64,000 nucleotides of DNA from Hymenobacter taeanensis. GTDB lineage: Bacteria; Bacteroidota; Bacteroidia; Cytophagales; Hymenobacteraceae. This document shows, one piece after another, positions 868 through 56,800 of the stretch. Every line of letters starts with the position of its first letter. The stretch's first letter is position 1. The stretch covers positions 3,689,001 to 3,753,000 of the forward strand of contig NZ_CP053538.1 of assembly GCF_013137895.1 (NCBI RefSeq). The letters run 5' to 3'. Below the pieces are notes generated by a model. It had not been told where the DNA came from, did not search any database, and saw only the letters and a list, made by a program, of their open reading frames with translations. The position numbers and the translations under genes are program-made.

Positions 868-899
868 GAACGTTATGCTTTGACAAGCTCAGCATGACA
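868..899. repeat. Degenerate AACGTCATGCT/AGCATGACG palindrome
   Basis: Imperfect dyad with left half GTTATGCT and right half AGCATGAC, separated by TTGACAAGCTC. It lies between pseI and the partial glycosyltransferase. The same core ends the larger repeats at 4421-4533 and 6976-7084 and the hairpins at 36687 and 55436, so it looks like a small member of that intergenic repeat family. Confidence 0.55.
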
Positions 900-930
900 G
901 GCTTTTTCTGGTTTCGGTCCAGGTAATGGT

Positions 931-1971
931 CTAGAGCGCCTCCCAGGTCAGGGGAGTGCCGGCGCGCAGATCTTGGCGGGCAGGTTTACCCAGGAGCTGA
1001 TCGTAGTAACGGGGTGGCAGACCGTCGCCGGGGCGCACTACGCGCAGGTTTTCTTTGGTGAACACATCGCCGGCTGCAATATTCTGGGCTACATACAGAG
1101 AGCGTTTATAGAGGCGGCTTTTTTCCTCGGCCCGCTGCACGCCGTATTGCACCTGGCCTAGGGCCTGCCACGCCCGTTCGGTTTCGGTTACCAGTTGGGC
1201 TACTTCTTCCGGCTCCAGGGAGAAGGCGGAATCCACACCCCCATCGGCGCGGCGCAGGGTCACGTGTTTTTCTACTACGCAGGCACCCAGGGCCACGGCA
1301 GCTACGGCAGCGCCCACGCCCATGGTGTGGTCGGAGAGGCCCACGAGGCAGTCGGGGAAGAGCTGCTGGAAGTGTGGCAGCGTGCGTAGGTTAGTGTTCT
1401 GGGGAGTGGCGGGGTAGGTGCTGGTGCACTTCAGCAATATCAGCTCCTTACAGCCAGCTTCGCGCAGCACCTGCACGGCTTCGGCTACCTCGGCTAAGGT
1501 GCTGGCGCCGGTGCTCATAATTACGGGCTTGCCGGTGGCTGCTACCCGGCGGAGTAGGGGCCAGTCGGTGTTTTCGAAGGAGGCAATTTTGTACGCGGGC
1601 ACGTCGAGGGTTTCCAGGAAATCCACGGCGGTTTCATCAAAAGGCGAGCTAAAGGCCAGCATGCCGTGCTCCCGGGCCCGGTCGAACAGTGGTTTGTGCC
1701 ATTCCCAGGGCGTGTGGGCCTCCTGGTAGAGCTCGTGCAGCTCGCGGCCGTACCACAGGGAGTTGGGGTCGTCGATGCGGTAGGCGCCGGGCAGCGTCAT
1801 GGTATCGGCGGTATACGTCTGGAGCTTGATAGCGTGGGCACCGGCCGCCGCCATGGCATCTATAATGGCCAAGCCCCGGTTGAGGTCCTGGTTATGGTTG
1901 CCGCTGAGCTCGGCAATGATGAAAGGCGGTTGGTCGGGGCCAATGGGGCGAGGGCCGATGGAAATCTGCAT
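931..1971 (-). CDS. pseI: Pseudaminic acid synthase
   Basis: 346 aa. PseI condenses 6-deoxy-AltdiNAc with phosphoenolpyruvate to give pseudaminic acid, a nine-carbon nonulosonate, in the cytoplasm. The N-terminal NeuB-type TIM barrel begins with IIAELSGNHNQ (about residues 18-28) and contains KLQTYTADTMTL, FSSPFDETAVDFL and GLSDHTMG, which fit PseI better than sialic acid synthase. A C-terminal SAF/antifreeze-like domain covers about 285-346 (RSLYVAQNIAAGDVFT through the C-terminus). Length is normal for the family. Its identity as PseI rather than NeuB is reinforced by pseB, pseC, pseF and pseG/H lying just upstream on the same strand; the gap to pseG/H is 110 bases. Confidence 0.93.
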   Translation of the reverse strand: MQISIGPRPIGPDQPPFIIAELSGNHNQDLNRGLAIIDAMAAAGAHAIKLQTYTADTMTLPGAYRIDDPNSLWYGRELHELYQEAHTPWEWHKPLFDRAREHGMLAFSSPFDETAVDFLETLDVPAYKIASFENTDWPLLRRVAATGKPVIMSTGASTLAEVAEAVQVLREAGCKELILLKCTSTYPATPQNTNLRTLPHFQQLFPDCLVGLSDHTMGVGAAVAAVALGACVVEKHVTLRRADGGVDSAFSLEPEEVAQLVTETERAWQALGQVQYGVQRAEEKSRLYKRSLYVAQNIAAGDVFTKENLRVVRPGDGLPPRYYDQLLGKPARQDLRAGTPLTWEAL

Positions 1972-2081
1972 GCTGCAAAAATACGAAGCCCCGCGGGAGG
2001 CGGGGCTATAGGATTAGAAGTATGCGTCGGGTTCAGGGATTGATTGAGGGCAGGTTGGCTGGAACAAGTGCGCCGGAAGCT

Positions 2082-3614
2082 TCACGCAGCAGAGCCGGCC
2101 GCTGCCCAGCAAAAAGTAACCTCATTTGCCTCTGCAAGTTTATCAGGCAACTGCCAAAACCCAGCCCGCTCAAAAGCCTTAACCGAAGCTACATTGGCTG
2201 GCTGCACGTGGCCTAGCACACTCCGTACTTGCGGAAACTGCGCCGTAACATGACGGGTGCCGGCCAGCAGCAGCAGCGCCGCCAAGCCCCGACCCCGGAA
2301 CCGGGCATCCAGCAAATAGCTCAGGGTGGCTTCCTCGCCCTCCACGGCAAACCGGATCAGGCCGGCAGGTAGGCCAGTGGCAGCATCCTGGGCCAACAGG
2401 AGCAGGGCCTGCGGATCGGCGAGGCGGGCGGCCAGCCACTGCCGGTGGTCGGCGGGGGCTACGGGGTTGGGGTTGAAGGAGTGCTGTCGCACCGCTGGCT
2501 CATTGGTCCAGGTCAGAAGCTGGTCGGAGTCAGCAGCCGTGACGGGGCGCAGGTAGAAGGGTGGGGGCGGCGGCAGCAGCGCGGTAAACTCCTGGCGGAG
2601 CCGCTCGGCCGTCAGCCCATCGAATACGCTGCGCTGCGCCTCTTGCAACTGGCTGGCAATGCGGGCAGCTTCGGGCGAGGTCAGTACGTTGGAAGCCGAG
2701 GTGTAGGGTAGGGCTAGACCAGCCTGCCGCAGATACTGGGCTATGTCGTATTGGTTGTCGGCCACTGGCAGGATGAACAACAGGCCTCCGCCAGCCGCGC
2801 AATACTCGTAGCTCACGGTGCTGGCCGAGCACACGGCCGCCCCGCACTGGCGCATCAGTTCGGCCAACTGCTCCCCCGTAAGGTTACGGTGCAGTAGCAG
2901 CCGGGGCTGATCCTGAGCCCACGACTGTAGGCTGTCCCAGCTTGCGTAGGCGCTACCCACTACGGCATGCACCTGCGGGGCCGAGGGCAAGTCTAGCAGC
3001 GCCGCCGTTACGCGCTGGGTTTGGTGGGTGGGGTCGGCGCCGCCGAGGCACACCAGAATCTGGTTCGGGTCGGGAGCCGCGGTGACTTTCTGGGGCTGGC
3101 GGAAAGCCGCTCGCAGAGGGGTATACGCGGGCCCACTAAGCAGGCGCGCGCCGGGCTGGCGCAACTCATATTGCTTCAGGATGATGCCTCCGGCTGGGTT
3201 CAGGATGAGGTCGGCGGCTAGCGGGAAGCTGTGCAGGTCGTCGAGGTACACTAGCCGGGCTACCACCCCCCGCACCGTGTTCTGGTACTCATAGCGGAAG
3301 TCGTAGCCATCCAGCACCACCACGTCAGTAGGCCGTAGCACCTGCCGCACCAGCTCGGCGGCTTCTTCGGGCAGCGGCCGAAGCGGCAGCTTCTGCACCA
3401 CAAGGCCCGCGGCAGTAAGTTGCTGCACCAACTCCGGATCAGGCTGCCGAATCAGAAAAAGCAGTTCAGCAGCCAGTGGAGCCAGCATCTCCGCCAGAGC
3501 CAGCAGGCGCATGACGTGGCCTAGGCCTATGCGGGAGTTGCCATCGGCCCGAAATACCAAGCGAGGAATGCGCGCGAATGCAGCCGCTCCAGCGGCCGGA
3601 ACAGGTGTTTCCAT
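2082..3614 (-). CDS. PseG-PseH fusion: UDP-sugar hydrolase plus amino-sugar N-acetyltransferase
   Basis: 510 aa. The N-terminal part (about 18-345) is PseG, which removes UDP from UDP-2,4-diacetamido-2,4,6-trideoxy-L-altropyranose. It begins FRADGNSRIGLGHVMRLLAL with the family's GxGHxxR motif at 30-36 (His33 is the expected catalytic residue), and a MurG-like fold follows. The C-terminal part (about 352-510) is a GNAT acetyltransferase (PFYLRPVTAADSDQLLTWTN, then the acetyl-CoA loop RFRGRGLA), matching PseH, which acetylates the C4 amine in the preceding step. In Campylobacter and Helicobacter these are separate genes; here one polypeptide carries consecutive steps. The ATG at 3614 is the first possible start. 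Gap to pseF upstream is 42 bases. Confidence 0.9.
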   Translation of the reverse strand: METPVPAAGAAAFARIPRLVFRADGNSRIGLGHVMRLLALAEMLAPLAAELLFLIRQPDPELVQQLTAAGLVVQKLPLRPLPEEAAELVRQVLRPTDVVVLDGYDFRYEYQNTVRGVVARLVYLDDLHSFPLAADLILNPAGGIILKQYELRQPGARLLSGPAYTPLRAAFRQPQKVTAAPDPNQILVCLGGADPTHQTQRVTAALLDLPSAPQVHAVVGSAYASWDSLQSWAQDQPRLLLHRNLTGEQLAELMRQCGAAVCSASTVSYEYCAAGGGLLFILPVADNQYDIAQYLRQAGLALPYTSASNVLTSPEAARIASQLQEAQRSVFDGLTAERLRQEFTALLPPPPPFYLRPVTAADSDQLLTWTNEPAVRQHSFNPNPVAPADHRQWLAARLADPQALLLLAQDAATGLPAGLIRFAVEGEEATLSYLLDARFRGRGLAALLLLAGTRHVTAQFPQVRSVLGHVQPANVASVKAFERAGFWQLPDKLAEANEVTFCWAAAGSAA

Positions 3615-3656
3615 GCCCCGAAAGTAGGGAGCCCGCCCGTAACCGCCGGTAGTGGC

Positions 3657-4382
3657 CTAGATTTTCTTCTGCTCTACGTGGGCGTTCAGCGCCACCAACT
3701 CCGGGTGCTGGTCGAGCAAGGCAACCAGCGCATCAGCGGATAAGGCTGCCGCCCCGTGCTCTTCTATCAACCGCCTAATCAGCTCAAAGTCCTCAGCAGT
3801 ATCTACGGTGAGGCGGTAGGCGCTACGGTTTTCAGAGCGCAGCACGTGCTGAAACCGCACCCCTCCCGAGCGGTTCTGGTGGATGTAAGGCGTTACGTGC
3901 TCGCGGTCGGAAGCCAGTGTGGCGTGTTGGGCCGCTTCTTCCAGGAGCTCCCGGGAGAAAATTTCAAAGTCGAAGCCCCGTGGGAAAGTGCGCTCCAGCA
4001 CGTTTGACAGGTACAGCCGCGTATCGTTGGCCCGCAGGTACTCCTGAACCGAGTGGCCTACAAGTGCCCCATCCAGAAGGGGGCAGTCGGAGGTTACGCG
4101 TACCACCACATCCAGTTCATGCTCCTGCGCGCACAAAGCGTACCGCGACAGCACATCGTGCTCATCACCACGCACGTAGGCGAGCTGCCGAGCCTCCGCA
4201 AAGTCAGCCAGCGGGCCGTCGGTGGCGTTGGTCGTAATGGCCAGGTGTAGGGGAAAACCACTGGCTTGCAGGCGCTCCACGTGGTGGTGCAGAAGCGGCT
4301 GGCCGCCTACCGGCAGCAGCACTTTGCCCGGCAGCCGGGTGCTGGTCATGCGGGCCTGCGAGATAATGCCGACTTTTTTCAC
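3657..4382 (-). CDS. pseF: Pseudaminic acid cytidylyltransferase
   Basis: 241 aa from a GTG start at 4382 (VKKVGIISQARMTSTRLPGK). A longer frame could begin with TTG at 4418, but its extra 12 residues are unlike the family and read into the intergenic repeat, so I prefer GTG. PseF activates pseudaminic acid with CTP to CMP-Pse, the glycosyl donor. The nucleotide-binding signature ARMTSTRLPGKVL is at the N-terminus, and DVVVRVTSDCPLLD provides the second conserved SpsF/KdsB-type block. It lies between pseC and pseG/H in one operon. SpsF-like cytidylyltransferases of other glycans look similar, so the assignment leans on context. Confidence 0.88.
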   Translation of the reverse strand: MKKVGIISQARMTSTRLPGKVLLPVGGQPLLHHHVERLQASGFPLHLAITTNATDGPLADFAEARQLAYVRGDEHDVLSRYALCAQEHELDVVVRVTSDCPLLDGALVGHSVQEYLRANDTRLYLSNVLERTFPRGFDFEIFSRELLEEAAQHATLASDREHVTPYIHQNRSGGVRFQHVLRSENRSAYRLTVDTAEDFELIRRLIEEHGAAALSADALVALLDQHPELVALNAHVEQKKI

Positions 4383-4420
4383 GGGGTACAGAAGTTTAGG
4401 AAATCGTCCAGCAAACAAAG

Positions 4421-4533
4421 AACGTCCTGCTGAGCTTGCCGAAGCATCTCTACCGCTGGCTAATTACTGGCCCAGGCCTCTGCAACGGAGCGGTAGAGAT
4501 GCTTCGACTGCGCGGACGCCAGATCAAGCAGGA
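4421..4533. repeat. Intergenic repeat A, copy 1 (about 113 bp, palindromic)
   Basis: Lies between pseC and pseF. It contains an internal inverted repeat, AGCATCTCTACCGCT against AGCGGTAGAGATGCT, and begins with a GTCCTGCTGAGC end motif. The reverse complement of 6976-7084 matches it along most of its length (shared blocks include CATCTCTACCGCTGGCTAATT and GCGCCAGATCA-type ends), so the two copies are in opposite orientation around pseC and pseB. No coding capacity; consistent with a REP/MITE-like element. Confidence 0.75.
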
Positions 4534-4567
4534 CAATTCTACAAATTTCAGTAGGTTCTGGATTCGT

Positions 4568-5746
4568 TTATGCCTGCACGAACTCCCGAATGCAGTCAAT
4601 CACATACTGCTGTTCCTCATTGGTAAGGCTGGGAAACAGCGGAATGCTCAGGCAATGGGCGTAGTAGGCTTCCGATAGCGGGAAGTTGCCGGGCTGCCAC
4701 CCGAGTTGCTGGTAATAGGGCATGGTGTGCACCGGGATGTAGTGCACCTGGGCAAAAATCTGCCGCTCCCGCAGGAAATCGTACAGTCCTTTCCGGTCTT
4801 CCACCTGAATCACATACAAGTGGTAAGCGTGGCCTGGTGCTCCGGCCAAGGGCCGCACCTCCGGCATTTGAGCAAAAACAGCATCATACCGAGCGGCCAG
4901 GTCGCGGCGGCGCGCTAGGCCTTCCTCGGCGCGCCGGAGCTGACTGATCCCGAGGGCGCAGAGCATATCAGGCATACGGTAGTTGTAGCCCAGCTCCTGC
5001 ATCTCCATGTACCAGCCGCCATCAGAAGGGCGTTCCAGCTGGGCGGGGTCTTTGGTGATGCCGTGAGTGCGCAGGCGCAGCAGGTGCTCGTAGAGTGCGG
5101 GGTTGTTGGTAGTAATCATGCCGCCCTCGCCGGTTGCAATGTGCTTCACGGGGTGGAAACTGAAAATGGCCAGGTCGGCAAACTGCCCGTTGCCGCAACG
5201 CTGCTTCTGGCCCAGTGAGTCGGTAAAGAACCCGCCGGGAGCGTGGCAGGCATCCTCAATAATCCAGAGGCCAAACTCATCGGCCAACTGCCGGGCTTCC
5301 TCCAGGTTCACTGCTAAACCGGCAAAGTCCACCGGAATCAGGCCCTGGAAGTGACCTGCGGGGTAGCTTTCCAGTAGGCGCCGTACTGCTTTCAGGTCAA
5401 TCAGCGCCGTGGCAGGGTCAATATCTACAAAGTGTACCTCGCCACCGCAGTAGCGCACGCAGTTAGCTGAGGCTGAAAAGGTAATGGGTGTGGTAATAAC
5501 CCGCTGGCCCGGCTGCACACCCAGCGCCAGCGCGCACAGGTGTAGCGCAGCCGTGCCATTAGCCACGGCCACGGCATAGGTAGCACCAATGTACTCGGCA
5601 AACTTCTGCTCAAACTCCGCCACTTTGGGGCCTTGCGTGAGGTAATCAGAGTATAGCGTATCGGTCACGGCCTGCACATCCTCGGGGGTGATGTGCTGGC
5701 GGCCGTAAGCAATGGGGTGCATAGGCTGGAAGGCGGACTGAATCAT
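4568..5746 (-). CDS. pseC: UDP-4-keto-6-deoxy-AltNAc 4-aminotransferase
   Basis: 392 aa, a normal length. PLP-dependent DegT/DnrJ/EryC1-family sugar aminotransferase that converts the PseB product to UDP-4-amino-4,6-dideoxy-AltNAc. Visible features are YGRQHITPEDVQAV at the N-terminus, the VANGTAALHL cofactor-phosphate loop at about 61-70, IIEDACHAPGG at about 162-172 and FSFHPVKHIATGEGGM, whose Lys201 is the expected Schiff-base lysine. It is transcribed with pseB (77-base gap) and pseF (repeat-containing gap). The start ATG at 5746 is the first in frame; the family core would also tolerate the internal Met9. Confidence 0.93.
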   Translation of the reverse strand: MIQSAFQPMHPIAYGRQHITPEDVQAVTDTLYSDYLTQGPKVAEFEQKFAEYIGATYAVAVANGTAALHLCALALGVQPGQRVITTPITFSASANCVRYCGGEVHFVDIDPATALIDLKAVRRLLESYPAGHFQGLIPVDFAGLAVNLEEARQLADEFGLWIIEDACHAPGGFFTDSLGQKQRCGNGQFADLAIFSFHPVKHIATGEGGMITTNNPALYEHLLRLRTHGITKDPAQLERPSDGGWYMEMQELGYNYRMPDMLCALGISQLRRAEEGLARRRDLAARYDAVFAQMPEVRPLAGAPGHAYHLYVIQVEDRKGLYDFLRERQIFAQVHYIPVHTMPYYQQLGWQPGNFPLSEAYYAHCLSIPLFPSLTNEEQQYVIDCIREFVQA

Positions 5747-46875: not shown

Positions 46876-46915
46876 ATTTTTTTTAAGTCCTTTGAGTTTA
46901 TAATATCGAACAGCG

Positions 46916-46931
46916 TGTCCAATAGTGGACA
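46916..46931. promoter_or_regulatory. Activator-binding dyad upstream of the adaptor gene
   Basis: TGTCCAATAGTGGACA, a perfect TGTCC-N6-GGACA dyad (extended to GTGTCCA-N4-TGGACAC at 46915-46932). Its centre is 73.5 bp upstream of the TGGC of the sigma-54 promoter at 46997. The equivalent site at 49859 has the same spacing. Confidence 0.7.
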
Positions 46932-46996
46932 CATTCAGGTGAGGTTATCTAAACATTAGAAACAATAACTTGCTGATAATAAAGTATTTATAAAAG

Positions 46997-47013
46997 TGGC
47001 ATGACCGTTGGCT
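46997..47013 (+). promoter_or_regulatory. Sigma-54 promoter of the adaptor-TolC operon
   Basis: TGGCATGACCGTTGGCT against consensus TGGCACG-N4-TTGCW: invariant GG at -24 is present and TTGG stands for TTGC at -12 with correct spacing. It would start transcription about 25 bases before the ATG at 47049. Confidence 0.75.
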
Positions 47014-47048
47014 GATCGTACTGGAACCCCTTTCCTTCCTGTACGAAA

Positions 47049-48296
47049 ATGGACAGATCCATTCCTGCCGCCACCCAACAGCGTCGCCAGCGCCAGCGCT
47101 GGTTAACGGGGGCGGGTATCTTAGCATTACTAGTGTTAGGCCTGGTTGCATTCCGCAGTATTCTGAAGCCTAGCCTAGACCGCAGCGCTATTCTGCTGGC
47201 TACCACCGAAACCGGAGATGTTGAGGCCGCGCTAACGGCCGCTGGCGTCATTATTCCGGCGCATGAGGCAGTTATTACCAGCCCCATTCAGAGCACCATT
47301 AGGCGGGTAATGGTGCCCGTAGGCAGCAAGGTGCAACCGGGGCAAACTATTCTGGAGCTAGACCGCGAGCTGACTACCACCGCCCTGGCAAAGCTGCAGG
47401 ATGAGCAGCAGCAAAACCGCAACAAGAACAACCAGCTCCAGCTCACCCTGGAAAAGGCGCTTAATGACCTCCGCTCCCAGGAGCAGGTGCAGCAAGTGAA
47501 AGTGCGTAGCCTGCAGTCGGCGCTTCGTGATGAGCAGTACATGCTCAAAATTGGAGGCGGCACTTCAGAAAGTGTACGTCAGGCGGAGCTGAACCTAAAA
47601 GTGGCCCAGCTGGAGCTGCAGCGCCTAGGTGAGCAAATCCGGAACCAGCAGGCCGCCAACGCTGCCGATGTACGGGAGCTAGGCTTCACCATGCAAATTC
47701 AAGACCGCAGTATTGCGGAGCTGGCCGGCAAGTTGGCCCAGGCCAACATTAGTAGCCAGCAGCCCGGCGTGCTTACCTGGGTAAAAGACGACCTGGGTAC
47801 CACCGTGCAGGCCGGCGACGCCCTAGCCCGAGTAGCCGACCTCAGTCATTTTCGGGTGCGGGCTACCATAGCCGACTCCTATGCCGACGCTCTGCACCTC
47901 GGCGACGCAGTGATAGTTCGTATCAATGGCACCGACCTGCGCGGCACTATTAGTACGGTGAGTCCGGCGGTGGAGAAGGGCGTAGTCACGTTTTATGCGG
48001 CACTGGCCCAGGACAACCATCCGGCGCTGCGCTCTAACCTGCGGGCCGATGTGTTTGTGGTGACGAAAGCGCTGCATAATGTGGTGCGCGTGAAAAACGG
48101 CCCCTTCTACCAAGGCGGTAAAGAGCAGCCAGTGTTTGTAGTGAAAGACGGCAAAGCCGTGCGCCGGACGGTGCAGTTTGGGGAGAGCAATTTTGACTAC
48201 GTGCAGGTAACAAGTGGCCTAGCCGCTGGTGAGCAGATCATACTCTCCGACACTAAAGACTACCTGGATACGCCCGAACTCACTATTAAGGACTAG
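47049..48296 (+). CDS. Periplasmic adaptor (membrane-fusion) subunit, MacA/HlyD-like
   Basis: 415 aa. A single N-terminal transmembrane helix (about 18-38, LTGAGILALLVLGLVAFRSIL) is followed by a beta-barrel/lipoyl hairpin (GVIIPAHEAVITSPIQSTIRRVMVPVGSKVQPGQTILEL), a long coiled coil (about 115-215, LAKLQDEQQQNRNKNN through LQRLGEQIRNQ), then a second lipoyl half and membrane-proximal domain. It bridges an inner-membrane MacB-like transporter and a TolC channel. The first gene of the sigma-54-driven operon; the TolC-like gene follows after 7 bases. Confidence 0.88.
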   Translation: MDRSIPAATQQRRQRQRWLTGAGILALLVLGLVAFRSILKPSLDRSAILLATTETGDVEAALTAAGVIIPAHEAVITSPIQSTIRRVMVPVGSKVQPGQTILELDRELTTTALAKLQDEQQQNRNKNNQLQLTLEKALNDLRSQEQVQQVKVRSLQSALRDEQYMLKIGGGTSESVRQAELNLKVAQLELQRLGEQIRNQQAANAADVRELGFTMQIQDRSIAELAGKLAQANISSQQPGVLTWVKDDLGTTVQAGDALARVADLSHFRVRATIADSYADALHLGDAVIVRINGTDLRGTISTVSPAVEKGVVTFYAALAQDNHPALRSNLRADVFVVTKALHNVVRVKNGPFYQGGKEQPVFVVKDGKAVRRTVQFGESNFDYVQVTSGLAAGEQIILSDTKDYLDTPELTIKD

Positions 48297-48303
48297 CGGC
48301 TGT

Positions 48304-49749
48304 ATGAAACGGATTCTACCTTTACTGGCGCTGCTGGCGGGTACCCCGGCCGCGGCTCAATCTTCTAACACCGTAACCCTGCAACAGGTGATCAACTCGG
48401 CCCTAGGCCAGTCGGCGGTGGCAAAACAAACGCAAACCACCCGCGACAAAAGCTACTGGGAGTGGCGTACATACCAGGCCAACTACAAGCCGCAGCTGGG
48501 TCTGCAGGGCACGCTACCTGGGTTCAGCCGCGCCGTCACGCCCGTTGTGCAGCCTGATGGTACCACCGATTTCCGGGCCGTGCGCATCAACAACTCCAAC
48601 CTGGCCATGACGGTCACGCAAAATATTGGCCTGACTGGTGGGCAGTTATTCGTGGCTTCTGAAGTGCAACGCTTTGATGATTTCAATGGGCGGCTGAAAC
48701 GCTACAACAACCAGCCCGTGGCCATAGGAGTGACGCAGCCCATTGGGATGTTCAACGGCCTGAAGTGGGCCCGGCAAATTGAGCCACTACGCTATCAAGA
48801 AAGTCAGCGCCAGTACGTGGAGGAGCACGAAGGTATTGCCCAGCGCATCACAGAACTGTATTTCGACGTGTTGCAGCAGCAAGTAAATGCCGAGGTGGCC
48901 AGCCAAAACGTGCGAGCCAACGAGGAGCTCCTACGAATAGGGAAGGAGCGCTACCAACTAGGGCGCCTTTCGCAAAGCGACTTACTGCGCTTAGAGCTTA
49001 ACTTGCTCAATGCCCGGCAGGCTATGGCCCAAGGGCAGCTTGATGCAGAAAATGCAGCCGTGAGCTTGCAGAGCTACACTGGCCTACGGGCCGCCGAACT
49101 ATACCTGACGATTCCGGCAGCGGCTCCGCGCTTGGTGGTGCCAGCAGAATTGGCTCTGGCTCAGGCCCGGCAAAATAGGAGCGTGGTACTGGCCTTCCAG
49201 CGGCGTTTGCTGCAGGCCGAGCGGGAAGTTGCTCTGGCCAGAGGTACTACTGGCCTACAAGCCTCTCTCTCTGCCAACTTGGGCTACGTAAACCAAGCTG
49301 GTAACCTGTGGGATACCTATGCTGCGCTGCAAAATCAGCAGCAGGTACGCCTTACGTTCTCACTGCCGCTGGTAGACTGGGGCAAGCAACGCTCTATTGT
49401 GAAAACTGCTGAACTGACCCGGCAACAGGCGCAGACCGATATTGCACAGGAGGAAGCTACGTTTGAGCAGAATGTGCAGGTGCAAGCAGCTCAACTGAGC
49501 ACGCTAAGCCAGCAACTAGACCTGGCCGCCCGCGCCGATTCTTTGGCTCAGCAGCGCTATGATATTGCTCAGGCCACCTATAAAGTGGGGCGCATCAGCC
49601 TCACCGACCTCACTATTGCCTCTAATGAAAAGGACCAGGCCCGGCGGGCCTACATTCTGGCGCTTAGAGCGGCCTGGGTGGCCCATTACCGATTACGGGC
49701 GCTTACGCTCTATGACTTTGAGCGCCAATTGCCTTTGGCGGCACAGTAG
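48304..49749 (+). CDS. TolC-family outer-membrane efflux channel
   Basis: 481 aa from ATG at 48304 (an earlier in-frame start at 48229 would overlap the adaptor gene and bury the signal peptide MKRILPLLALLAGTPAAAQS). Long helices rich in Gln/Ala/Leu with TolC-type features are visible: VTLQQVINSALGQSAVAKQTQ, ITELYFDVLQQQVNAEVASQNVRANEELLRIGKERYQLGRLSQSDLLRLELNLL and the second repeat RYDIAQATYKVGRISLTDLTIASNEK. Outer-membrane exit duct for the adaptor and ABC permeases encoded alongside. Confidence 0.9.
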   Translation: MKRILPLLALLAGTPAAAQSSNTVTLQQVINSALGQSAVAKQTQTTRDKSYWEWRTYQANYKPQLGLQGTLPGFSRAVTPVVQPDGTTDFRAVRINNSNLAMTVTQNIGLTGGQLFVASEVQRFDDFNGRLKRYNNQPVAIGVTQPIGMFNGLKWARQIEPLRYQESQRQYVEEHEGIAQRITELYFDVLQQQVNAEVASQNVRANEELLRIGKERYQLGRLSQSDLLRLELNLLNARQAMAQGQLDAENAAVSLQSYTGLRAAELYLTIPAAAPRLVVPAELALAQARQNRSVVLAFQRRLLQAEREVALARGTTGLQASLSANLGYVNQAGNLWDTYAALQNQQQVRLTFSLPLVDWGKQRSIVKTAELTRQQAQTDIAQEEATFEQNVQVQAAQLSTLSQQLDLAARADSLAQQRYDIAQATYKVGRISLTDLTIASNEKDQARRAYILALRAAWVAHYRLRALTLYDFERQLPLAAQ

Positions 49750-49769
49750 CCATACTACAAGCACGGTAC

Positions 49770-49805
49770 ACACAGCGGCGTGGGGGCAACCCTACGCCGC
49801 TGTGT
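49770..49805 (+). terminator. Hairpin after the TolC-like gene
   Basis: ACACAGCGGCGT and ACGCCGCTGTGT form a 12-bp perfect stem 20 bases past the stop. The T tract is poor (TGTAT), but it closes the first transcription unit before the second sigma-54 promoter. Confidence 0.65.
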
Positions 49806-49858
49806 TGTATATGGGCATTCTACAAAGTGTCTGGTGCATTCAACATTACTGAACACTC

Positions 49859-49874
49859 TGTTCGGTATCGGACA
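49859..49874. promoter_or_regulatory. Activator-binding dyad upstream of the ABC operon
   Basis: TGTTCGGTATCGGACA fits TGTyC-N6-GGACA. Centre at 49866.5, exactly 73.5 bp upstream of TGGC at 49940, the same as the site at 46916-46931 relative to its promoter. Confidence 0.65.
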
Positions 49875-49939
49875 TATTCTAATAATTCAATAGTTTTAAT
49901 ATTTATCATAAACAAATGATTTATAGATAATTGTGGGTT

Positions 49940-49956
49940 TGGCACGCTGCTTGGCT
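49940..49956 (+). promoter_or_regulatory. Sigma-54 promoter of the ABC-ECF operon
   Basis: TGGCACGCTGCTTGGCT: the -24 half TGGCACG is a full consensus match, and the -12 half TTGG differs only in the final base from TTGC. Predicted start near 49966, about 73 bases before the ATG at 50039. Confidence 0.8.
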
Positions 49957-50038
49957 ATTCTACTACACCCCGGGTGGCCTAGTGCCCAAAACCGGACATC
50001 TACTTAGAACGCCTTCCTCATTTCTACTTCGCCATCCC

Positions 50039-50782
50039 ATGGAAAACATTCTCGCCCAAACTGCCGCTCGGCCTCAAGCTACTGGTAGCGCCGCAAGTAC
50101 TGCTACTAAACCCGTCATCCAGCTCCGCGACATTGAGAAGGTCTACCAGACCAAAACAATTGAGACGGTAGCGCTTAACCGAGTTAATCTCACTATTAAC
50201 CAAGGCGAGTTTGTGTCCATCATGGGGCCGTCGGGTTGCGGCAAGTCTACGCTGCTCAGCATTATTGGCCTGCTTGATGAGCCCACCAGCGGCGTAATCG
50301 AGTTAGATGGTCGCCCAGTGCAGTCGTACTCCGACAAGGAACTGGCCTACCTACGCAACCAGAAAATCGGGTTCGTTTTCCAGAGCTACCACCTCATCAA
50401 CGATCTGTCGGTGTTGGATAACGTGGAGCTGCCCCTGCTCTACCGCGCCGGGGTAGGCGGGAAGGAGCGGCGGGAGCGCGCTTATGCTGCCCTTGATAAG
50501 GTGGGTCTGAGTGCCCGCACCAACCACTTCCCCAGCCAGCTCTCGGGTGGGCAGCGCCAGCGGGTGGCCATTGCCAGAGCCCTGGCTGGTCGTCCCGAAA
50601 TCATTCTGGCCGACGAACCCACCGGTAACCTCGATTCTGTGATGGGGGAGGAGATTATGGATCTGTTGCTGGGCCTAAACCAGCAGGAGGGCGTCACCAT
50701 TGTGATGGTAACCCACGACGAGCAGCAAGCCCACAAAACCCAACGTCTTATCCGCTTCTTCGACGGCAGCCAAGTAAGCTAA
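50039..50782 (+). CDS. ABC transporter ATP-binding protein, MacB/LolD type
   Basis: 247 aa from ATG at 50039 (the frame opens at 49931 but that part includes the promoter). Walker A GPSGCGKST at 63-71, Q-loop FVFQSYHLI, signature LSGGQ at 168-172, Walker B IILADEP at 188-194 followed by TGNLDS, and a switch histidine in VMVTHDE. An Ala/Thr-rich 22-residue N-terminal extension is unusual. Hydrolyses ATP to power the FtsX-type permeases encoded downstream. First gene of the operon: ATPase, ECF sigma, permease 1, permease 2. Confidence 0.92.
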   Translation: MENILAQTAARPQATGSAASTATKPVIQLRDIEKVYQTKTIETVALNRVNLTINQGEFVSIMGPSGCGKSTLLSIIGLLDEPTSGVIELDGRPVQSYSDKELAYLRNQKIGFVFQSYHLINDLSVLDNVELPLLYRAGVGGKERRERAYAALDKVGLSARTNHFPSQLSGGQRQRVAIARALAGRPEIILADEPTGNLDSVMGEEIMDLLLGLNQQEGVTIVMVTHDEQQAHKTQRLIRFFDGSQVS

Positions 50783-50825: not shown

Positions 50826-51413
50826 ATGAAAACGCTCACCCTTTCCCTGCCCGATACTGAGTTAGTAGCCGCTTGCCGCCAAGGTAGTGCAGCTGCTCAG
50901 GAACAGCTATACCGTCGTTTTGCCCCCAAAATGCTAGGCCTATGCTTGCGCTACCTGCGCCACCAGTTTGATGCGGAGGATGCCTTGGCTCGGGGCTTCG
51001 TGAAAGTATTTCGGTGCCTAGGCCAGTTTGAGGGCAAGGGCAGCCTGGAAGGGTGGGTCCGCTGTATTATGGTGCGCGAAGCCCTAAACTGCTTGCGCCG
51101 CCGCGAGTCACTGACGCTGAGCATCGAAGACTGCTATACGGGCCACTTGGCTACTGAACTGCCCAGCGCCGAGGTGGAACTGCAAGCCGCCGATTTGTTG
51201 CGGCTAGTGCAGGAACTGCCCGCGGGCTACCGGGCCGTGTTCAACCTATGTGCGCTGGAGGGCTATACCCACCCCGAAGTGGCCGAGATGCTCGGTATTT
51301 CGGAGGGCACCAGCAAATCACAGCTTAGTAAGGCCCGGGCCGTGCTGCAGCGGCAGGTGGCCGCGCTTCATTCTTCTCTCTCTACTTCCTACGCCCACGC
51401 TCATGTTGCTTAG
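50826..51413 (+). CDS. ECF-type RNA polymerase sigma factor
   Basis: 195 aa. Sigma-70 region 2 (ELVAACRQGSAAAQEQLYRRFAPKMLGLCLRYLRHQFDAEDALARGFVKVFRCLGQFEG) and region 4 (LVQELPAGYRAVFNLCALEGYTHPEVAEMLGISEGTSKSQLSKAR) fit the RpoE-like/ECF class, cytoplasmic. The gene lies 43 bases after the ATPase gene and overlaps the start of permease 1 by 11 bases, so it is translated within the transporter operon. No anti-sigma gene is adjacent, which is unusual for an ECF factor; the level may be set by sigma-54-dependent transcription instead. Confidence 0.92.
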   Translation: MKTLTLSLPDTELVAACRQGSAAAQEQLYRRFAPKMLGLCLRYLRHQFDAEDALARGFVKVFRCLGQFEGKGSLEGWVRCIMVREALNCLRRRESLTLSIEDCYTGHLATELPSAEVELQAADLLRLVQELPAGYRAVFNLCALEGYTHPEVAEMLGISEGTSKSQLSKARAVLQRQVAALHSSLSTSYAHAHVA

Positions 51414-52656
51414 CTACCTCAAAATTGCCTGGAAAGTCTTGCTGCGCCGCAAGTTCTTCACCTTCATCAGCCTGTTTGGCATCTCGTTCACGCTCATGGT
51501 ACTGCTCGTGGTGGTGGCCATGTTTGACCACGTGGTAGGAGCCCACGCCCCCGAAACGCGGCTTAACCGAATGCTGTTCGTGAACTTCCTGCACATCAAG
51601 TACAAGAACGGGGGCAACCAGAACTCCCCCGCCAGCTATTACTTGCTTGACCGGTACGTGCGCCCGCTCAAGACGCCGGAAAAAGTAGCCGTGCACTCTA
51701 TGTTTCACTCTACGCCCAGCTACGTAGGCAACAACCGCATTGACCTGGACCTCAAGTATACCGACAATGTTTTTTGGCAGGTGCTGGACTTCGATTTCAA
51801 AGAGGGTAAGCCCTTCGGCGAGTCAGAGATGAAGTCGGCGGCTCACGTGGCAGTTATCAACCAGACCACCGCCCGCAAATACTTTGGTACCGCTACGGGT
51901 GTGGTAGGTCGTACCATTGAAATCAACCAGAGCGCCTACCGGGTGATGGGCGTGGTAGAGGATGTACCGGTAATGCGCATATCCTCCTACGCCGATGTGT
52001 GGGTGCCCATCTCCACGAGCTCCAATAATCTAAACCAGGTTAGGCTTGATGGTGAGTACTCCGCTATTATTCTGGCCAAGTCTGCGGCCGATAAAGCAGC
52101 CGTGCAAGCCGAGTTTGATCAGATGGTGAAGCGCGTTCCGCTGCCCAACCCCAAAGAAATGGACCACCTTGATCTGCATGCCGATCAACTACTGGCCTCC
52201 TATTCTCGGCAGCTGATGAGCCCCCTTACTGATTACAGCTCCGACGGTACGGCTCTCCTCTACACAATTCTTTCGGGCATTGCCTTGCTCTTCATGCTGC
52301 TACCGGCCCTAAACCTGGTGAACATCAACGTGAGCCGCATCATGGAACGCTCCTCAGAAATTGGCGTCCGGAAGGCCTTCGGAGCCACCAGCGGCACCCT
52401 GATAGGACAGTTTCTGGTAGAAAATATTTTTCTGACCAGTATTGGTGGCTTACTAGGCTTACTACTAGCCTACGTGGCACTACAGCTGATTGGCGGAGCG
52501 CAAATTATGGCCTACGCCCACTTTGAATTGAACTGGCGGATTTTCAGCTGGGCCCTAGCCGTGACGTTGTTCTTCGGTGTACTATCGGGGGTATATCCAG
52601 CCTTTAAAATGTCGCGGCTGTTGCCCGTGCAGGCTCTGAAAGGCGGAGCCAAATAG
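51403..52656 (+). CDS. ABC transporter permease 1 (MacB/FtsX-type)
   Basis: 417 aa from ATG at 51403; the longer frame from 51250 only overlaps the sigma gene. N-terminal TM (about 22-42, FFTFISLFGISFTLMVLLVVV), a large periplasmic MacB_PCD-like domain (about 45-290), and C-terminal FtsX domain with three helices (about 285-310, 340-365, 380-402; LLYTILSGIALLFMLLPALNLVNINVSRIMERSSEIGVRKAFGA). The 11-base overlap with the ECF sigma gene suggests translational coupling. It is followed by permease 2 after 36 bases. Confidence 0.9.
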   Translation: MLLSYLKIAWKVLLRRKFFTFISLFGISFTLMVLLVVVAMFDHVVGAHAPETRLNRMLFVNFLHIKYKNGGNQNSPASYYLLDRYVRPLKTPEKVAVHSMFHSTPSYVGNNRIDLDLKYTDNVFWQVLDFDFKEGKPFGESEMKSAAHVAVINQTTARKYFGTATGVVGRTIEINQSAYRVMGVVEDVPVMRISSYADVWVPISTSSNNLNQVRLDGEYSAIILAKSAADKAAVQAEFDQMVKRVPLPNPKEMDHLDLHADQLLASYSRQLMSPLTDYSSDGTALLYTILSGIALLFMLLPALNLVNINVSRIMERSSEIGVRKAFGATSGTLIGQFLVENIFLTSIGGLLGLLLAYVALQLIGGAQIMAYAHFELNWRIFSWALAVTLFFGVLSGVYPAFKMSRLLPVQALKGGAK

Positions 52657-52692: not shown

Positions 52693-53886
52693 ATGATACG
52701 TCACCTGTTTACCCTGATTTGGAACCGCAAACGCTCGAATTTTCTGCTCATGGCCGAAATTCTGCTGTCGTTCTTCGTGCTGTTTGTTGTGAGCGTGCTG
52801 CTCGTGAACAACTTCTACAACTACCGTCAGCCGTTGGGGTTTGTGCCCGATAATGTGTGGGAGTTTGATGTGGACCCCGGCTTGGATACCACCGACCGCA
52901 AAGGCACTTTGCGCCTGCTTGTACAGGAGCTGCAAGCCACCCCCGGTGTGGCAGCCGTCACCTGGACCAGCTCCAACACGCCCTTCTCGTTCAGCAACAT
53001 GAACACCGACCAGTATCACTACAAAGACAAGCAGGGCCCCCTGACGGAGCGCTATGATGTTGATGATGACATGGTGCGCGTGCTGGGGCAGAAGGTAGTA
53101 GCCGGCCGGTGGTTTGACCGCCGCGATGATGCTTCCACCCGCCCGCCCGTGGTCGTCAACCAGAAGTTTGCGGAGGAGGTATTCGGGCAGGAGTCTGCCG
53201 TTGGTAAGGTGCTCACCAACGATAAGCACGACCAGGAGTGGCAGATTGTAGGCGTGATAGAGGCCTACCGCTCAGGCAACGACTTTGCGGCCAACGAACC
53301 CGCCATTTTCGACCGGCGCGTGGTGCAGGATACCGCGCAGATTGGCAACCATGAGCAACCAATACTGCTGGTGCGCGTGCAGCCCGGGAGTGGCGCCGTG
53401 CTAGAGCAGCAGCTAGTGCGCAAAATCAAGCGGGTAACCAAGGGCTGGGATGCCAACGTGAACACCCTCGCTGAAAACCGCCAAGATAAGATGAAGTTCA
53501 TGCTCACGCCCTTGGTAGCCTTGGGGCTGGTAGGCCTGTTCTTAATCATCAATGTGGCGCTAGGCCTGTTTGGTGTACTATGGTACAACATCAACCAGCG
53601 CAAAGCCGAAATTGGGTTGCGCAGGGCCCTGGGCGCCACTGGTAACGGCATCAGCCGGCAATTTTTGGGAGAAATGCTGGTAGTCACCACCCTGGGAGTG
53701 GCTGGGGGCTTGTTGCTGGCCGTGCAGTTTCCGCTACTCGGGGTGTTTGGATTAGCTTCTCAGGTGTATGTGCAGGCTATGCTGCTGGCAACGGTGCTTA
53801 TCTACTTGCTGACGGCCATTTGCGCCCTGCAGCCCAGCCGTATTGCGGCTGGTATTCACCCAGCAGTGTCGTTGCGGGAGGAGTAG
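52693..53886 (+). CDS. ABC transporter permease 2 (MacB/FtsX-type)
   Basis: 397 aa with the same plan as permease 1: N-terminal TM (about 16-37, ILLSFFVLFVVSVLLVNNF), a periplasmic domain (about 40-270), three C-terminal helices (about 280-305, LVALGLVGLFLIINVALGLFGVLWYN; 320-345; 365-385) with RKAEIGLRRALGATG. The two permeases are distinct in sequence, so the membrane unit is probably a heterodimer powered by the ATPase at 50039. Exports or extracts an envelope substrate that I cannot identify. Confidence 0.9.
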   Translation: MIRHLFTLIWNRKRSNFLLMAEILLSFFVLFVVSVLLVNNFYNYRQPLGFVPDNVWEFDVDPGLDTTDRKGTLRLLVQELQATPGVAAVTWTSSNTPFSFSNMNTDQYHYKDKQGPLTERYDVDDDMVRVLGQKVVAGRWFDRRDDASTRPPVVVNQKFAEEVFGQESAVGKVLTNDKHDQEWQIVGVIEAYRSGNDFAANEPAIFDRRVVQDTAQIGNHEQPILLVRVQPGSGAVLEQQLVRKIKRVTKGWDANVNTLAENRQDKMKFMLTPLVALGLVGLFLIINVALGLFGVLWYNINQRKAEIGLRRALGATGNGISRQFLGEMLVVTTLGVAGGLLLAVQFPLLGVFGLASQVYVQAMLLATVLIYLLTAICALQPSRIAAGIHPAVSLREE

Positions 53887-54026: not shown

Positions 54027-55409
54027 ATGATTCTCATAATTGACGACGACTTAGCCGTCCGGACTTCGCTAGGGTTATTACTAAAGCAGGCGGGCTACGT
54101 AACCAAGGGGGTGGCCACGCCCGAAGAAGCCTTGCGCCACGTGCAAGAAACAGTGCCCTCCCTGATCCTGATGGACATGAATTTCTCACTCGAGACCAGT
54201 GGCCTTGACGGGTTACGGCTGCTAGGCCAGGTAAAACAGCTGGCCCCGCAGGTACCCGTGATTTTGATTACTGGGTGGGGCTCTATTGCACTGGCCGTGG
54301 AGGGCATGAAAGCCGGAGCCGCTGAGTTCGTGACCAAGCCCTGGAACAACGACTCCCTGCTGCAAACTATCCGGACAATTCTGAGCCTGCACGAGGCAGA
54401 ACCAGAAACAGACGCGGGTGCCCTCACTCGCCGGCAGCTGGACAAGCAGTATAACTTCAAGGGGATAGTAGGCCAGGATGCGCGTCTGTTGCAGGTGCTG
54501 CGCAACGTAGGCCAAGTAGCCGCCACCGATGCCTCCGTGCTAATCGAGGGTGAATCGGGCACCGGCAAAGAGCTCATTGCCGAGGCGGTGCACCAGAACA
54601 GCCACCGCCACCGACAGCCATTTGTGAAGGTAAACCTGGGCGGTATTTCGGCCTCCTTGTTTGAGAGCGAGATGTTTGGGCACCGGCGCGGCGCCTTTAC
54701 CGATGCTAAAACCGACCGCGTAGGCCGCTTTGAGCTTGCCAATGGTGGTACTATTTTTCTGGATGAGATTGGCGAGCTGGATCTGGGCTCCCAGGTAAAG
54801 CTGCTGCGGGTGCTGCAAGACCGCACCTACGAGGTGCTCGGCGACAGCAAGCCCCGCCGCCTCGATATTCGGGTGATTTGCGCCACCAACCGCAACCTGG
54901 CCGAGATGGTGCAACAAGGCCGCTTCCGCGAGGATCTGTTCTACCGCATCAACCTGATAACCGTGCGCCTGCCCGCTCTGCGTGAGCGTCCGCAGGATAT
55001 TCCGCTGCTGGTGCAGCACTTTGTAGATGGCCTGCGCGCCACTTACAACCGCCCTGCCCTGAAGGTGAGCACCCGCGCCCAGCACTGGCTGCAGGAGCAG
55101 CCGTTGCCGGGCAATATTCGGGAGTTGAAAAACCTGGTAGAGCGGGCCGTGCTGGTGAGCGGCAAAGATGAGCTGGGCCCCGAAGACTTTCAGGCGCAGT
55201 TTCAGCGTGTGCCCACCCGGCAGCCTGAGCCCGGCGAGCTGCCCGAACCAGGCACCATCACCCTCGATGAACTAGAGGCTCAAATGATTCGCCGCACGCT
55301 GGAGCACTACAGCGGCAACATCAGCCGCGTGGCTAAAGCCTTGGGTTTAAGCCGCGGCGCTCTTTACCGCCGACTGGAGAAATACGCCATTCCGTTTGAT
55401 GCGGAATAG
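54027..55409 (+). CDS. Sigma-54-dependent response regulator (NtrC type)
   Basis: 460 aa. Receiver domain (about 1-120) with IIDDD at 4-8 and phospho-acceptor Asp50 in LILMDMN; AAA+ domain (about 140-380) with Walker A GESGTGKE (173-180), the sigma-54 contact loop reading GAFTDA at 220-225 instead of GAFTGA, Walker B IFLDEI (241-246) and GNIRELKNLVERAV; C-terminal Fis-type helix-turn-helix (about 415-455, HYSGNISRVAKALGLSRGALYRRLEKY). It activates sigma-54 promoters after phosphorylation by the kinase encoded next; the two dyads at 46916 and 49859 are its likely sites. Confidence 0.94.
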   Translation: MILIIDDDLAVRTSLGLLLKQAGYVTKGVATPEEALRHVQETVPSLILMDMNFSLETSGLDGLRLLGQVKQLAPQVPVILITGWGSIALAVEGMKAGAAEFVTKPWNNDSLLQTIRTILSLHEAEPETDAGALTRRQLDKQYNFKGIVGQDARLLQVLRNVGQVAATDASVLIEGESGTGKELIAEAVHQNSHRHRQPFVKVNLGGISASLFESEMFGHRRGAFTDAKTDRVGRFELANGGTIFLDEIGELDLGSQVKLLRVLQDRTYEVLGDSKPRRLDIRVICATNRNLAEMVQQGRFREDLFYRINLITVRLPALRERPQDIPLLVQHFVDGLRATYNRPALKVSTRAQHWLQEQPLPGNIRELKNLVERAVLVSGKDELGPEDFQAQFQRVPTRQPEPGELPEPGTITLDELEAQMIRRTLEHYSGNISRVAKALGLSRGALYRRLEKYAIPFDAE

Positions 55410-55435: not shown

Positions 55436-55469
55436 GAACGTCATGCTTTATCCCAAGAGCATGACGTTC
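55436..55469 (+). terminator. Hairpin between response regulator and kinase genes
   Basis: GAACGTCATGCT and AGCATGACGTTC form a 12-bp perfect stem followed by TCCATTTT. It carries the same palindrome core as 36687-36721. It could attenuate read-through into the kinase gene 92 bases later. Confidence 0.6.
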
Positions 55470-55501: not shown

Positions 55502-56800
55502 ATGACTCTCCGCGTACAATTTCTGCTGTTTGTAGTGCTGATTCATGCAGTACTTATTGTGCTGGCAGCGCAAATAATGCGGACGAATGCCCCTCTTTTC
55601 CTGGGGCTTGAGGCGCTGCTGGGAGTCAGTATTTACCTAACCGTTCGGCTGTATAAAGGCTTTGTGCGGCCTTTCCAACTGATTGCCGCTGGCACGGAAG
55701 CCATTCGGGCCAAAGATTTCTCTATGAAATTTGTGCCCGTAGGCCAGCGTGAAATGGACCAGCTCATTGATGTGTATAACCACATGATTGATGAGCTGCG
55801 CAACGAGCGCGTAACCCAGCACGAGAAAAGCTACCTCCTTGAAAGCCTTATTCAGGCCTCGCCCGCTGGGGTGCTCTTGCTCACGTTTGATGGCCGCATT
55901 GAGGGAGTGAATCCGGCCGCTGAGCATATGCTAGGCCTGTCAACTAAGCAGCTGTTAGGAGAAAGGCCCGATCAATTACCCGGCGACTGGGGCCCCGCGC
56001 TGGCTAACCTCTCAGAGCAGGAGCCCCAAGTGGTACAGCTCTCGGGTATTCAAACCTACCGGGCCCACTGCTCCCGATTTGTAGACCGTGGTTTCACGCG
56101 GCGGTTTATTATGCTGGAGGAGCTAACCCAAGACCTGATTCGGCAGGAAAAACAGGCCTACGGGAAATTGATCCGGATGATGTCGCATGAAATCAACAAC
56201 TCCATCGGCGCCATCAACTCCATTCTGCAAAGCTTCCATTACTATGCCCCCCAGCTGCAACTCACCGACCAGCCCGACTTCATAGAGGCCCTCGATGTGT
56301 CCATTAACCGCAATACCCACCTGGCGAACTTCATTGCCAACTTTGCCAACCTGGTGCGTCTGCCCTTGCCGCAGCGCCAGCCCACCGATGTACACGAGCT
56401 GCTGCGCACCACCGAGCGTCTGCTGCATGTGCAGGTAGAGCGCCGCCAGATTTGCTGGCACTGGGAGCTGGCACCCGAGCCGTTAATAGTTGACTTGGAC
56501 CCTCTGCAACTGGAGCAAGCGTTACTGAACATCTGCAAAAACGCTCTCGAGGCCATCGGCGAACAGGGCAACGTGTGGGTGCGCACTACGGCAAACCCAG
56601 CGCAGGTCATCATTGAAAATGATGGGCCCGGTATTCCACCTGATGTGCAACGCCGCCTATTTACACCCTTCTTCAGCACCAAGCGCGACGGGCAAGGCAT
56701 CGGCCTCACTCTCATCCGCGACATACTGCTGCAGCATGAATTCAGCTTCGGTCTCGAAACTAGGAGCAACGGCCGGACGGCCTTTAGCATCCGGTTTTAA
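55502..56800 (+). CDS. PAS-containing sensor histidine kinase
   Basis: 432 aa. Two N-terminal hydrophobic helices (about 5-24 and 31-50) with almost no periplasmic loop, a HAMP-like linker (about 55-105), a PAS domain (about 112-208, SPAGVLLLTFDGRIEGVNPAAEHMLG), an H-box with His229 (MMSHEINNSIGAINSIL) and a HATPase domain (about 310-432, ALLNICKNALEAI, VIIENDGPGIPPDVQRRLFTPFFSTKRDGQGIGLTLIRDIL). Since it lacks a sensory loop it probably senses within the membrane or cytoplasm, as do kinases of cell-envelope stress. Cognate to the regulator at 54027. Confidence 0.92.
   Translation: MTLRVQFLLFVVLIHAVLIVLAAQIMRTNAPLFLGLEALLGVSIYLTVRLYKGFVRPFQLIAAGTEAIRAKDFSMKFVPVGQREMDQLIDVYNHMIDELRNERVTQHEKSYLLESLIQASPAGVLLLTFDGRIEGVNPAAEHMLGLSTKQLLGERPDQLPGDWGPALANLSEQEPQVVQLSGIQTYRAHCSRFVDRGFTRRFIMLEELTQDLIRQEKQAYGKLIRMMSHEINNSIGAINSILQSFHYYAPQLQLTDQPDFIEALDVSINRNTHLANFIANFANLVRLPLPQRQPTDVHELLRTTERLLHVQVERRQICWHWELAPEPLIVDLDPLQLEQALLNICKNALEAIGEQGNVWVRTTANPAQVIIENDGPGIPPDVQRRLFTPFFSTKRDGQGIGLTLIRDILLQHEFSFGLETRSNGRTAFSIRF

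Follow-up and report, generated by a model that had tools for sequence, protein, structure and literature searches.

A putative self-regulated sigma-54-type export switch in Hymenobacter, with candidate activator sites on both sides of its promoters

Can an envelope exporter be kept under the control of a regulator and kinase encoded beside it, and which sites would such a regulator read? The question is raised by a locus of Hymenobacter taeanensis in the stretch analysed here (the window: 64,000 nucleotides of contig NZ_CP053538.1, assembly GCF_013137895.1, positions 3,689,001 to 3,753,000). A first-pass annotation had placed two sigma-54 promoters with upstream dyads in this window and had predicted an autonomous circuit of kinase, activator and efflux or envelope export genes. 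We consider it likely that the locus is a self-regulated, envelope-coupled export switch working by the mechanism proposed below. At the level of DNA patterns, our comparisons show the sites, their fixed spacing and their near-exclusivity to this locus. The elements at the two promoters, called the HlyD promoter (promoter 1, before the adaptor gene) and the ABC promoter (promoter 2, before the gene of the ATP-binding cassette ATPase), are as follows, with signed distances counted from the TGGC.

46908..46912, forward strand: distal half-site GAACA of promoter 1, at -89
46916..46931, forward strand: candidate upstream activator dyad of promoter 1, TGTCCAATAGTGGACA, at -81 (roughly -107 to -92 relative to the predicted start)
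46966..46990, forward strand: IHF-type palindrome before promoter 1, centred at -19 and matching at 15 of 17 fixed positions
46997..47013, forward strand: sigma-54-type promoter 1, TGGCAT-N5-TTGGCT, start predicted at about 47023 from the -24/-12 geometry
47040..47055, forward strand: downstream dyad-like site of promoter 1, TGTACGAAAATGGACA, over the HlyD start codon, at +43
49851..49855, forward strand: distal half-site GAACA of promoter 2, at -89
49859..49874, forward strand: candidate upstream activator dyad of promoter 2, TGTTCGGTATCGGACA, at -81
49909..49933, forward strand: IHF-type palindrome before promoter 2, matching at 12 of 17 fixed positions
49940..49956, forward strand: sigma-54-type promoter 2, TGGCAC-N5-TTGGCT, predicted start at about 49966
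49983..49998, forward strand: dyad-like site downstream of promoter 2, TGCCCAAAACCGGACA, within the untranslated leader, at +43

A chance origin of the promoters and dyads is ruled out by counts in shuffled sequence and by their uniqueness in the genome. The window holds 2 matches to TGGCAN6TTGGCT against 0.07 expected, and none of 100 shuffles gave 2 or more; TGTYCN6GGACA occurs at two places (3 strand matches, 0.17 expected), and at least 3 matches were reached in 1 of 100 shuffles. When dyad and promoter are joined in one composite motif (dyad-65N-TGGY-N7-TTG), the 4.88-Mb genome contains it without mismatch at two places only, both in the window, with 1 further place at 2 mismatches and 18 at 3 (reversed control: 27 at up to 3 mismatches). 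The word TGGCAY-N5-TTGG by itself is found at 26 places of the genome (15 forward, 11 reverse); of the 13 forward words beyond the window, open stretches of at least 198 codons contain 11 and shorter ones 2. The pattern search recovered the promoters proposed at 46997 and 49940, together with both TGTyC-N6-GGACA dyads where they had been placed, the dyad centre standing 73.5 bp (the dyad start 81 bp) from the TGGC in each case. These promoters had been called near-consensus, which is accurate for the -24 element (TGGCAC-like, with GG-N10-G spacing at both) and not for the -12 element: the textbook sigma-54 -12 element is TTGC, and both window promoters read TTGG. We therefore term them sigma-54-type. 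The sigma-54 DNA-binding domain (rpoN) was found in all 21 genus genomes searched, that of H. taeanensis included.

The arrangement is conserved across the genus. Regulator orthologues with about 70% identity or more were found in 73 of 81 genus genomes, our own included, and the 72 other loci were fetched. HlyD was matched in 57 of the 73 loci; the upstream sequence was too short in 4, and the remaining 53 make up the HlyD promoter set. The ABC set comprises 41 promoters in the counts and 40 in the profile, from which one row more than 90% identical to another was removed. Two loci (L031 and L057), each with two candidate -24/-12 words and both with a perfect dyad at -81, were excluded from the ABC profile. 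A TGG-TTG[GA] promoter precedes HlyD in 53/53 loci, its TGG 51-52 nt upstream of the start codon. The -12 element is TTGG in 51/53 HlyD and 38/40 ABC promoters and TTGA in the other four, counts that depend on the TTG[GA] anchor used to build the set. The dyad lies exactly at -81 within 1 mismatch in 46/53 HlyD promoters (50/53 within 2) and 39/41 ABC promoters, and some of the misses are one-base shifts (-82 in L059 and L045). The half-site GAACA at -89 is present in 31/53 and 38/41, respectively. Mean identity between loci is 70-72% in the dyad and 79-81% in the promoter, and only 43-46% in the spacer between them, which argues that the fixed distance reflects more than recent ancestry. The spacing on which the first-pass annotation had staked its claim thus held within the genus. 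The ABC promoter is present only in part of the genus (40/69 loci by a strict TTGG search; of the 29 misses, at least L056, L081 and L088 have a near version), and its distance from the TolC alignment end ranges from 119 to 4924.

The dyads are also nearly private to these promoters. On the reading strand of the 73 loci, TGT[CT]C-N6-G[GA]ACA stands at the two promoters in 90 of 91 occurrences, the exception being in L091. The spaced dyad-promoter motif was found in 57/81 genus genomes, against 7 places in all for the reversed control. Of the 98 listed genus places (counted by eye), 82 share a contig with the regulator and are correctly oriented, and in 79 of these the dyad is separated from the TGG by exactly 65 bases; the other 16 comprise 2 reverse readings of the locus dyad, 4 places on other contigs and 10 elsewhere. 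Of the four on other contigs, the two inspected stand before export genes, namely an HlyD gene (G017:C57) and, in G057:C5, a degenerate HlyD that two FtsX genes follow. This second, degenerate set (L315, 3001-6355) has retained the dyad, the TGGT..TTGG promoter and the downstream GGACA.

The first-pass annotation had overlooked a dyad-like site downstream of each promoter, 124 bp after the upstream dyad at both window promoters. The putative site word of the regulator accordingly flanks the predicted start on both sides, in a bracket of the FleQ kind. The GGACA half of the downstream site is found at +54 in 52/53 HlyD and 40/41 ABC promoters of the genus. At the ABC promoter, the distance to the start codon comes in 25 different lengths, from 69 to 157 nt, and GGACA stays at +54 regardless; mean identity in the leader is 0.76 within the downstream word and 0.36 and 0.33 on its flanks. 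At the HlyD promoter, the word spans ATG GAC AGA, and codon 3 is AGA in all 52 ATG-starting genes (in the 53rd, L100, it is shifted by one base). AGA is otherwise avoided: it makes up 0.1% of the 1827 other arginine codons of the same HlyD genes, 0/195 of those at HlyD positions 4-16, and in neighbouring genes 0/314 at codons 2-12 and 7/2227 at codons 21-150. Its retention against codon bias indicates that the word is held at the nucleotide level, and within the genus the patterns show a DNA-level constraint on the downstream GGACA. The ABC leader is cleaner evidence for this site than the HlyD start. The left half of the site varies (TGTAC, TGCAC, TGCCC, TGTTC and others), a degeneracy that points to a site weaker than the upstream dyad.

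A second element missed in the first pass is a 25-bp palindrome, YAANNNNTTGATWATCAANNNNTTR, at -31 to -7 between dyad and promoter. The IHF site consensus is WATCAANNNNTTR, and we take the palindrome to be two opposed consensus words with a common centre. Its mean score is 13.1 of 17 in HlyD and 13.6 in ABC promoters, against 6.4 in shuffled spacers, with a peak only at -31..-7, and the complementary pairs at its centre rise to 6.1-6.6 of 12 against a median of 3.6-3.7. Single matches to the IHF word are imperfect: with at most 1 mismatch, the right half matches in 15/53 and 17/41 promoters and the left half in 23/53 and 25/41. Outside the genus we used 20 outgroup promoters, chosen by hand for their TGG-TTG words (from 13 of the 28 loci of the order and from 7 loci of the class with an HlyD); judged as a group, their best scores within -33..-29 average 13.8 (11-17 of 17), compared with 8.7 in shuffled sequence and 9.65 for the largest of 500 means. 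A search with PF00216 alone returned one full-length and one partial HU/IHF-family match in the H. taeanensis genome; a single full-length protein would suit a homodimer on a symmetric site. The palindrome as a regulon-specific site was dropped, because the genome has 51 places with at most 3 mismatches against 16 in the reversed control. Being enriched beyond the locus, it is not private to the regulon and is probably a general bend site. Joined to the promoter, it occurs (at most 2 mismatches) only at the two window promoters and at one 2-mismatch place. Among the 51 places of the palindrome alone is a 2-mismatch one next to a TGGCAT word, with GCGTACAG repeats (L323, contig C1 near 2076166). 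It lies on the strand opposite to a match to a paralogous NtrC-type regulator, about 230 bp before the start of that match, and reads away from it (by eye; the promoter pattern of the script was unmatched). This is perhaps another sigma-54 circuit of similar build.

The candidate reader of these sites is the NtrC-type regulator of the locus, in which REC, sigma-54 AAA+ and Fis-type HTH domains follow one another (PF00072, PF00158 and PF02954, all above cut-off). D50, presumably the phospho-acceptor aspartate of REC, is invariant in 6/6 aligned regulators, as is the sigma-54 contact loop GAFTDA (residues 222-227), one residue off the GAFTGA usual for this loop. A tie between GAFTDA and the TTGG at -12 found no support, since L218 combines GAFTDA with TTGC. 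Orthologues at E<=1e-115 occur in 59/194 genomes of an order sample and 18/295 of a class sample (genus members and some paralogues included), and the gene order HlyD-TolC-ABC-FtsX-FtsX-response regulator-kinase is found again in further families of the order and, in part, in the class. Beyond the genus, the dyad position varies from -61 to -101, a range for which helical phasing gave no consistent rule, and 7 of the 20 outgroup promoters have a second, often imperfect dyad 19-20 bp further upstream (by eye).

The operator also differs between families. In the genus it is mostly TGTCC-N6-GGACA (among 100 promoter calls, 88 are C|G and 10 are T|G) and residue 444 of the regulator is G or P, G in our own; in relatives of the order we find TGTTC-N6-GAACA with A or S at this residue, and TGTGC-N6-GCACA with F. 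Residue 444 directly follows an arginine aligned with Arg85 of E. coli Fis, which contacts DNA. F goes with the G|C operator (TGTGC) in 13/13 rows, non-F in 0/26. These counts come from a tree of 53 rows (12 chosen genus rows and 41 others, 14 of the 53 without an operator call), with the operator letters of 14 loci entered by hand and the paralogue loci L179, L180, L182, L183 and L227-L229 omitted. A one-residue code for all operator classes was rejected as not clean, A and S giving either T or C. In the f18 loci (L171-L178, N at 444), 17-bp NtrC-like TGC-N11-GCA palindromes stand upstream of HlyD in several loci (by eye), and the sigma-54 word was absent by the pattern used.

The genes behind the two promoters are the following.

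47049..48296, forward strand: HlyD-type periplasmic adaptor (Pfam PF13437, PF16576)
48304..49749, forward strand: TolC-type outer-membrane efflux protein, OEP (Pfam PF02321)
50039..50782, forward strand: ABC ATPase (Pfam PF00005), presumably of LolD/MacB type
50826..51413, forward strand: extracytoplasmic function (ECF)-type sigma factor within the ABC unit (Pfam), unmatched in many genus loci
51403..52656 (ATG at 51403), forward strand: permease 1, MacB_PCD and FtsX (Pfam, scanned from 51400)
52693..53886, forward strand: permease 2, MacB_PCD and FtsX (Pfam)
54027..55409, forward strand: NtrC-type response regulator with REC, sigma-54 AAA+ (GAFTDA loop) and HTH_8, recognition-helix G444
55502..56800, forward strand: histidine kinase with two N-terminal membrane helices, almost loop-less, HAMP, PAS

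The Pfam domains bear out the export genes expected from the first pass (HlyD, OEP/TolC, ABC ATPase and two MacB_PCD/FtsX permeases) and place the activator and its kinase after the two export units. ATPase and permeases are separate genes, unlike the single fused chain of MacB. Two N-terminal helices with almost no loop are the hallmark of intramembrane-sensing kinases, and the kinase has this build, with no periplasmic sensor domain; among its 114 readable orthologues, 111 have two N-terminal hydrophobic stretches with 0-10 residues between them and 3 have one stretch (9 of 123 loci were unreadable). Since such a kinase stands beside an FtsX-type transporter, we suggest that it senses in the membrane or through the pump. 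A closed circuit of intramembrane-type kinase, NtrC-type regulator and HlyD/TolC/ABC/FtsX pump is, as far as sequence goes, well supported. The predicted autonomy stood in that the genome has a single motif pair and the genus places lie mostly beside the regulator; it needs qualifying in that part of the genus lacks the ABC promoter and the dyad moves outside the genus. Two further features lie within the locus. The ECF sigma gene overlaps the first permease gene and, being unmatched in many genus loci, may be a second sigma factor recruited into the circuit. Between the regulator and kinase genes, a perfect 11-bp inverted repeat with a 12-base loop (55436-55469, GAACGTCATGC ... GCATGACGTTC) is a possible terminator or attenuator setting the ratio of regulator to kinase.

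The mechanism that we propose extends these patterns to regulator binding, a bending protein, a brake and a signal, all of which we infer. Either a disturbance arising in or at the inner membrane or the condition of the pump itself is the probable signal of the kinase (55502), which would phosphorylate the regulator (54027). The regulator would assemble on the tandem sites about 100 bp upstream of both promoters, the -81 dyad and the -89 half-site, and a bending protein at the IHF-type palindrome upstream of -24 would bring it to the sigma-54 polymerase, whereupon open complexes would form. Promoter 1 would supply the adaptor and the outer-membrane channel, and promoter 2 the ATPase, the permeases and, most likely by co-transcription with the ABC unit, the regulator and kinase themselves. 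At about +18 to +33 from the start, the third site would bind the same regulator less tightly and would most likely be filled only once phosphorylated regulator accumulates; when filled it would block promoter escape or close a loop, limiting the positive feedback. The fullest version of this proposal, which we advance tentatively, has one activator reading three sites per promoter (the main dyad, the half-site and the downstream site at fixed distance, which in one copy overlaps a start codon and keeps a rare codon in place), with a symmetric bend site for a homodimeric IHF/HU protein between them, in a self-limiting, autoactivated pump circuit. A single residue, adjacent to the conserved arginine of the recognition helix, would account for most of the rewiring of its operator specificity from family to family.

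The downstream site might instead aid activation, with regulator hexamers upstream and downstream joined across the bent promoter in a closed loop or wrap that raises or sharpens output. This would fit the 124 bp from site to site at both window promoters (about 11.8 helical turns), the bend-type palindrome between them and the precedent of FleQ, for which enhancer sites downstream of the RpoN site are announced in the title of Jyot 2002, as cited in PMC6120874 and PMC10723142. We hold it to be rather unlikely, as the degenerate left half fits a lower affinity than that of the upstream dyad, and the full site is lacking in the outgroup. That absence, with several other observations, also weighs against our own proposal. 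TGNNC-N6-GGACA occurs in 0/20 outgroup promoters, so the switch works elsewhere without the full downstream site; the GGACA half occurs at the HlyD start in 9/20 of them, including promoters with other upstream operator classes, so the HlyD word is partly ancestral coding sequence; and the downstream halves can pair at 3 or 4 of 5 positions in 51/53 HlyD and 25/41 ABC promoters. The last two points would suit a GGACA that acts in the RNA (in the translation start context, in leader stability or through an RNA-binding protein), as would its place within the transcript, on the HlyD start codon, where adjacent leader letters before the ATG are also kept. Against such a role, the ABC-leader word stays at a fixed distance from the promoter while that to the start codon varies, it is identical to the upstream half-site and shares its TGNNC-N6-GGACA register, and all five pairs form in only 0/53 HlyD and 5/41 ABC promoters, compared with 44/53 and 34/41 for the upstream dyad. 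We judge an RNA role improbable, and a hairpin in particular, by these pairing counts, possible and less likely than a DNA site. A brake exerted by the regulator from the downstream site is our preferred reading.

The other points on the contrary side concern the promoter and the regulator. To the TTGG at -12 are added the 140-bp gap before the regulator gene, which may hold a promoter of the regulator's own, and the limits of the operator evidence: the covariation with residue 444 amounts to two independent pairs on the tree (sign test p 0.5), the A/S classes are mixed (8/12 with T, against 1/14 for G/P), and no TGT-type dyad was called in the f18 loci. One might suppose that the dyads belong to another regulator and that the adjacent one acts elsewhere, given that the genome has 7 regulator matches at E<=1e-60, this one included. 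The confinement of 90 of 91 dyads in the fetched loci to the two promoters, and the shift of operator letters with the recognition-helix residue, make this very improbable. The palindrome, in turn, could be merely an A+T-rich element, flexible DNA or a contact for the C-terminal domain of the polymerase alpha subunit, rather than a site for an IHF/HU-type protein. The region is A+T-rich, and the C of the IHF word is weakly kept (24/53, 19/41). This alternative is possible, if somewhat doubtful, because the symmetry peaks at a single centre and the scores are about twice those of shuffled spacers. We retain the adjacent regulator as the probable reader of the dyads and the palindrome as a candidate bend site.

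The circuit is conserved, small and closed, with one kinase, one regulator, one pump and two promoters. It offers a clean natural case for the role of a downstream activator site, for the evolutionary rewiring of activator-operator pairs (one residue, one base pair) and for the link between a loop-less kinase and an FtsX-type exporter. The rare-codon signature at the HlyD start suggests a general way of finding regulatory sites hidden in coding starts.

How does this switch compare with known systems? MacAB-TolC is a tripartite exporter of the HlyD/ABC/FtsX kind, and the pump described here has the same parts: an HlyD adaptor, a TolC channel, an ABC ATPase and permeases of the MacB_PCD/FtsX type. 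It differs in that ATPase and permeases are separate, the two permeases are different, and the locus has its own kinase and sigma-54 regulator. Kinases of the BceRS type are intramembrane-sensing and coupled to FtsX-type transporters; here too a kinase with two helices and almost no loop lies beside an FtsX-type ABC transporter, but it is paired with a sigma-54 activator of the NtrC type, and the transporter resembles MacB. With the group I activators of the NtrC/AtoC/ZraR type the regulator shares the REC, AAA+ and Fis-type HTH domains, the paired kinase, sites near -100 and a -24/-12 promoter. It departs from them in having GAFTDA for GAFTGA, TTGG at -12, a half-site beside the dyad, a downstream site at fixed distance and a regulon restricted to its own pump locus.

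The closest parallel to the bracket is FleQ of P. aeruginosa, at the pel and flagellar promoters: the sites of this NtrC-type activator flank the promoter, with DNA bending between the boxes, as described in PMC10723142. According to the same paper, FleQ works with FleN and cyclic di-GMP, and the pel-type promoters are sigma-70-dependent; PMC6120874 reports no robust FleQ consensus. Our literature search, whose coverage left out most subscription journals, returned no description of this locus, of the circuit or of such a bracket for sigma-54 systems, and little on sigma-54 circuits in Bacteroidota. The general link between sigma-54 and FtsX permeases is already in print, because PMC12316311, in the portion available, predicts sigma-54 control of FtsX-type (COG0577) ABC permeases at genome scale in Bacteroidia, which it calls first evidence, and likewise of COG1136 ATPases in Opitutia. 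To that portion, the locus analysed here adds a candidate operator, its pairing with a regulator, the bracket architecture and the circuit.

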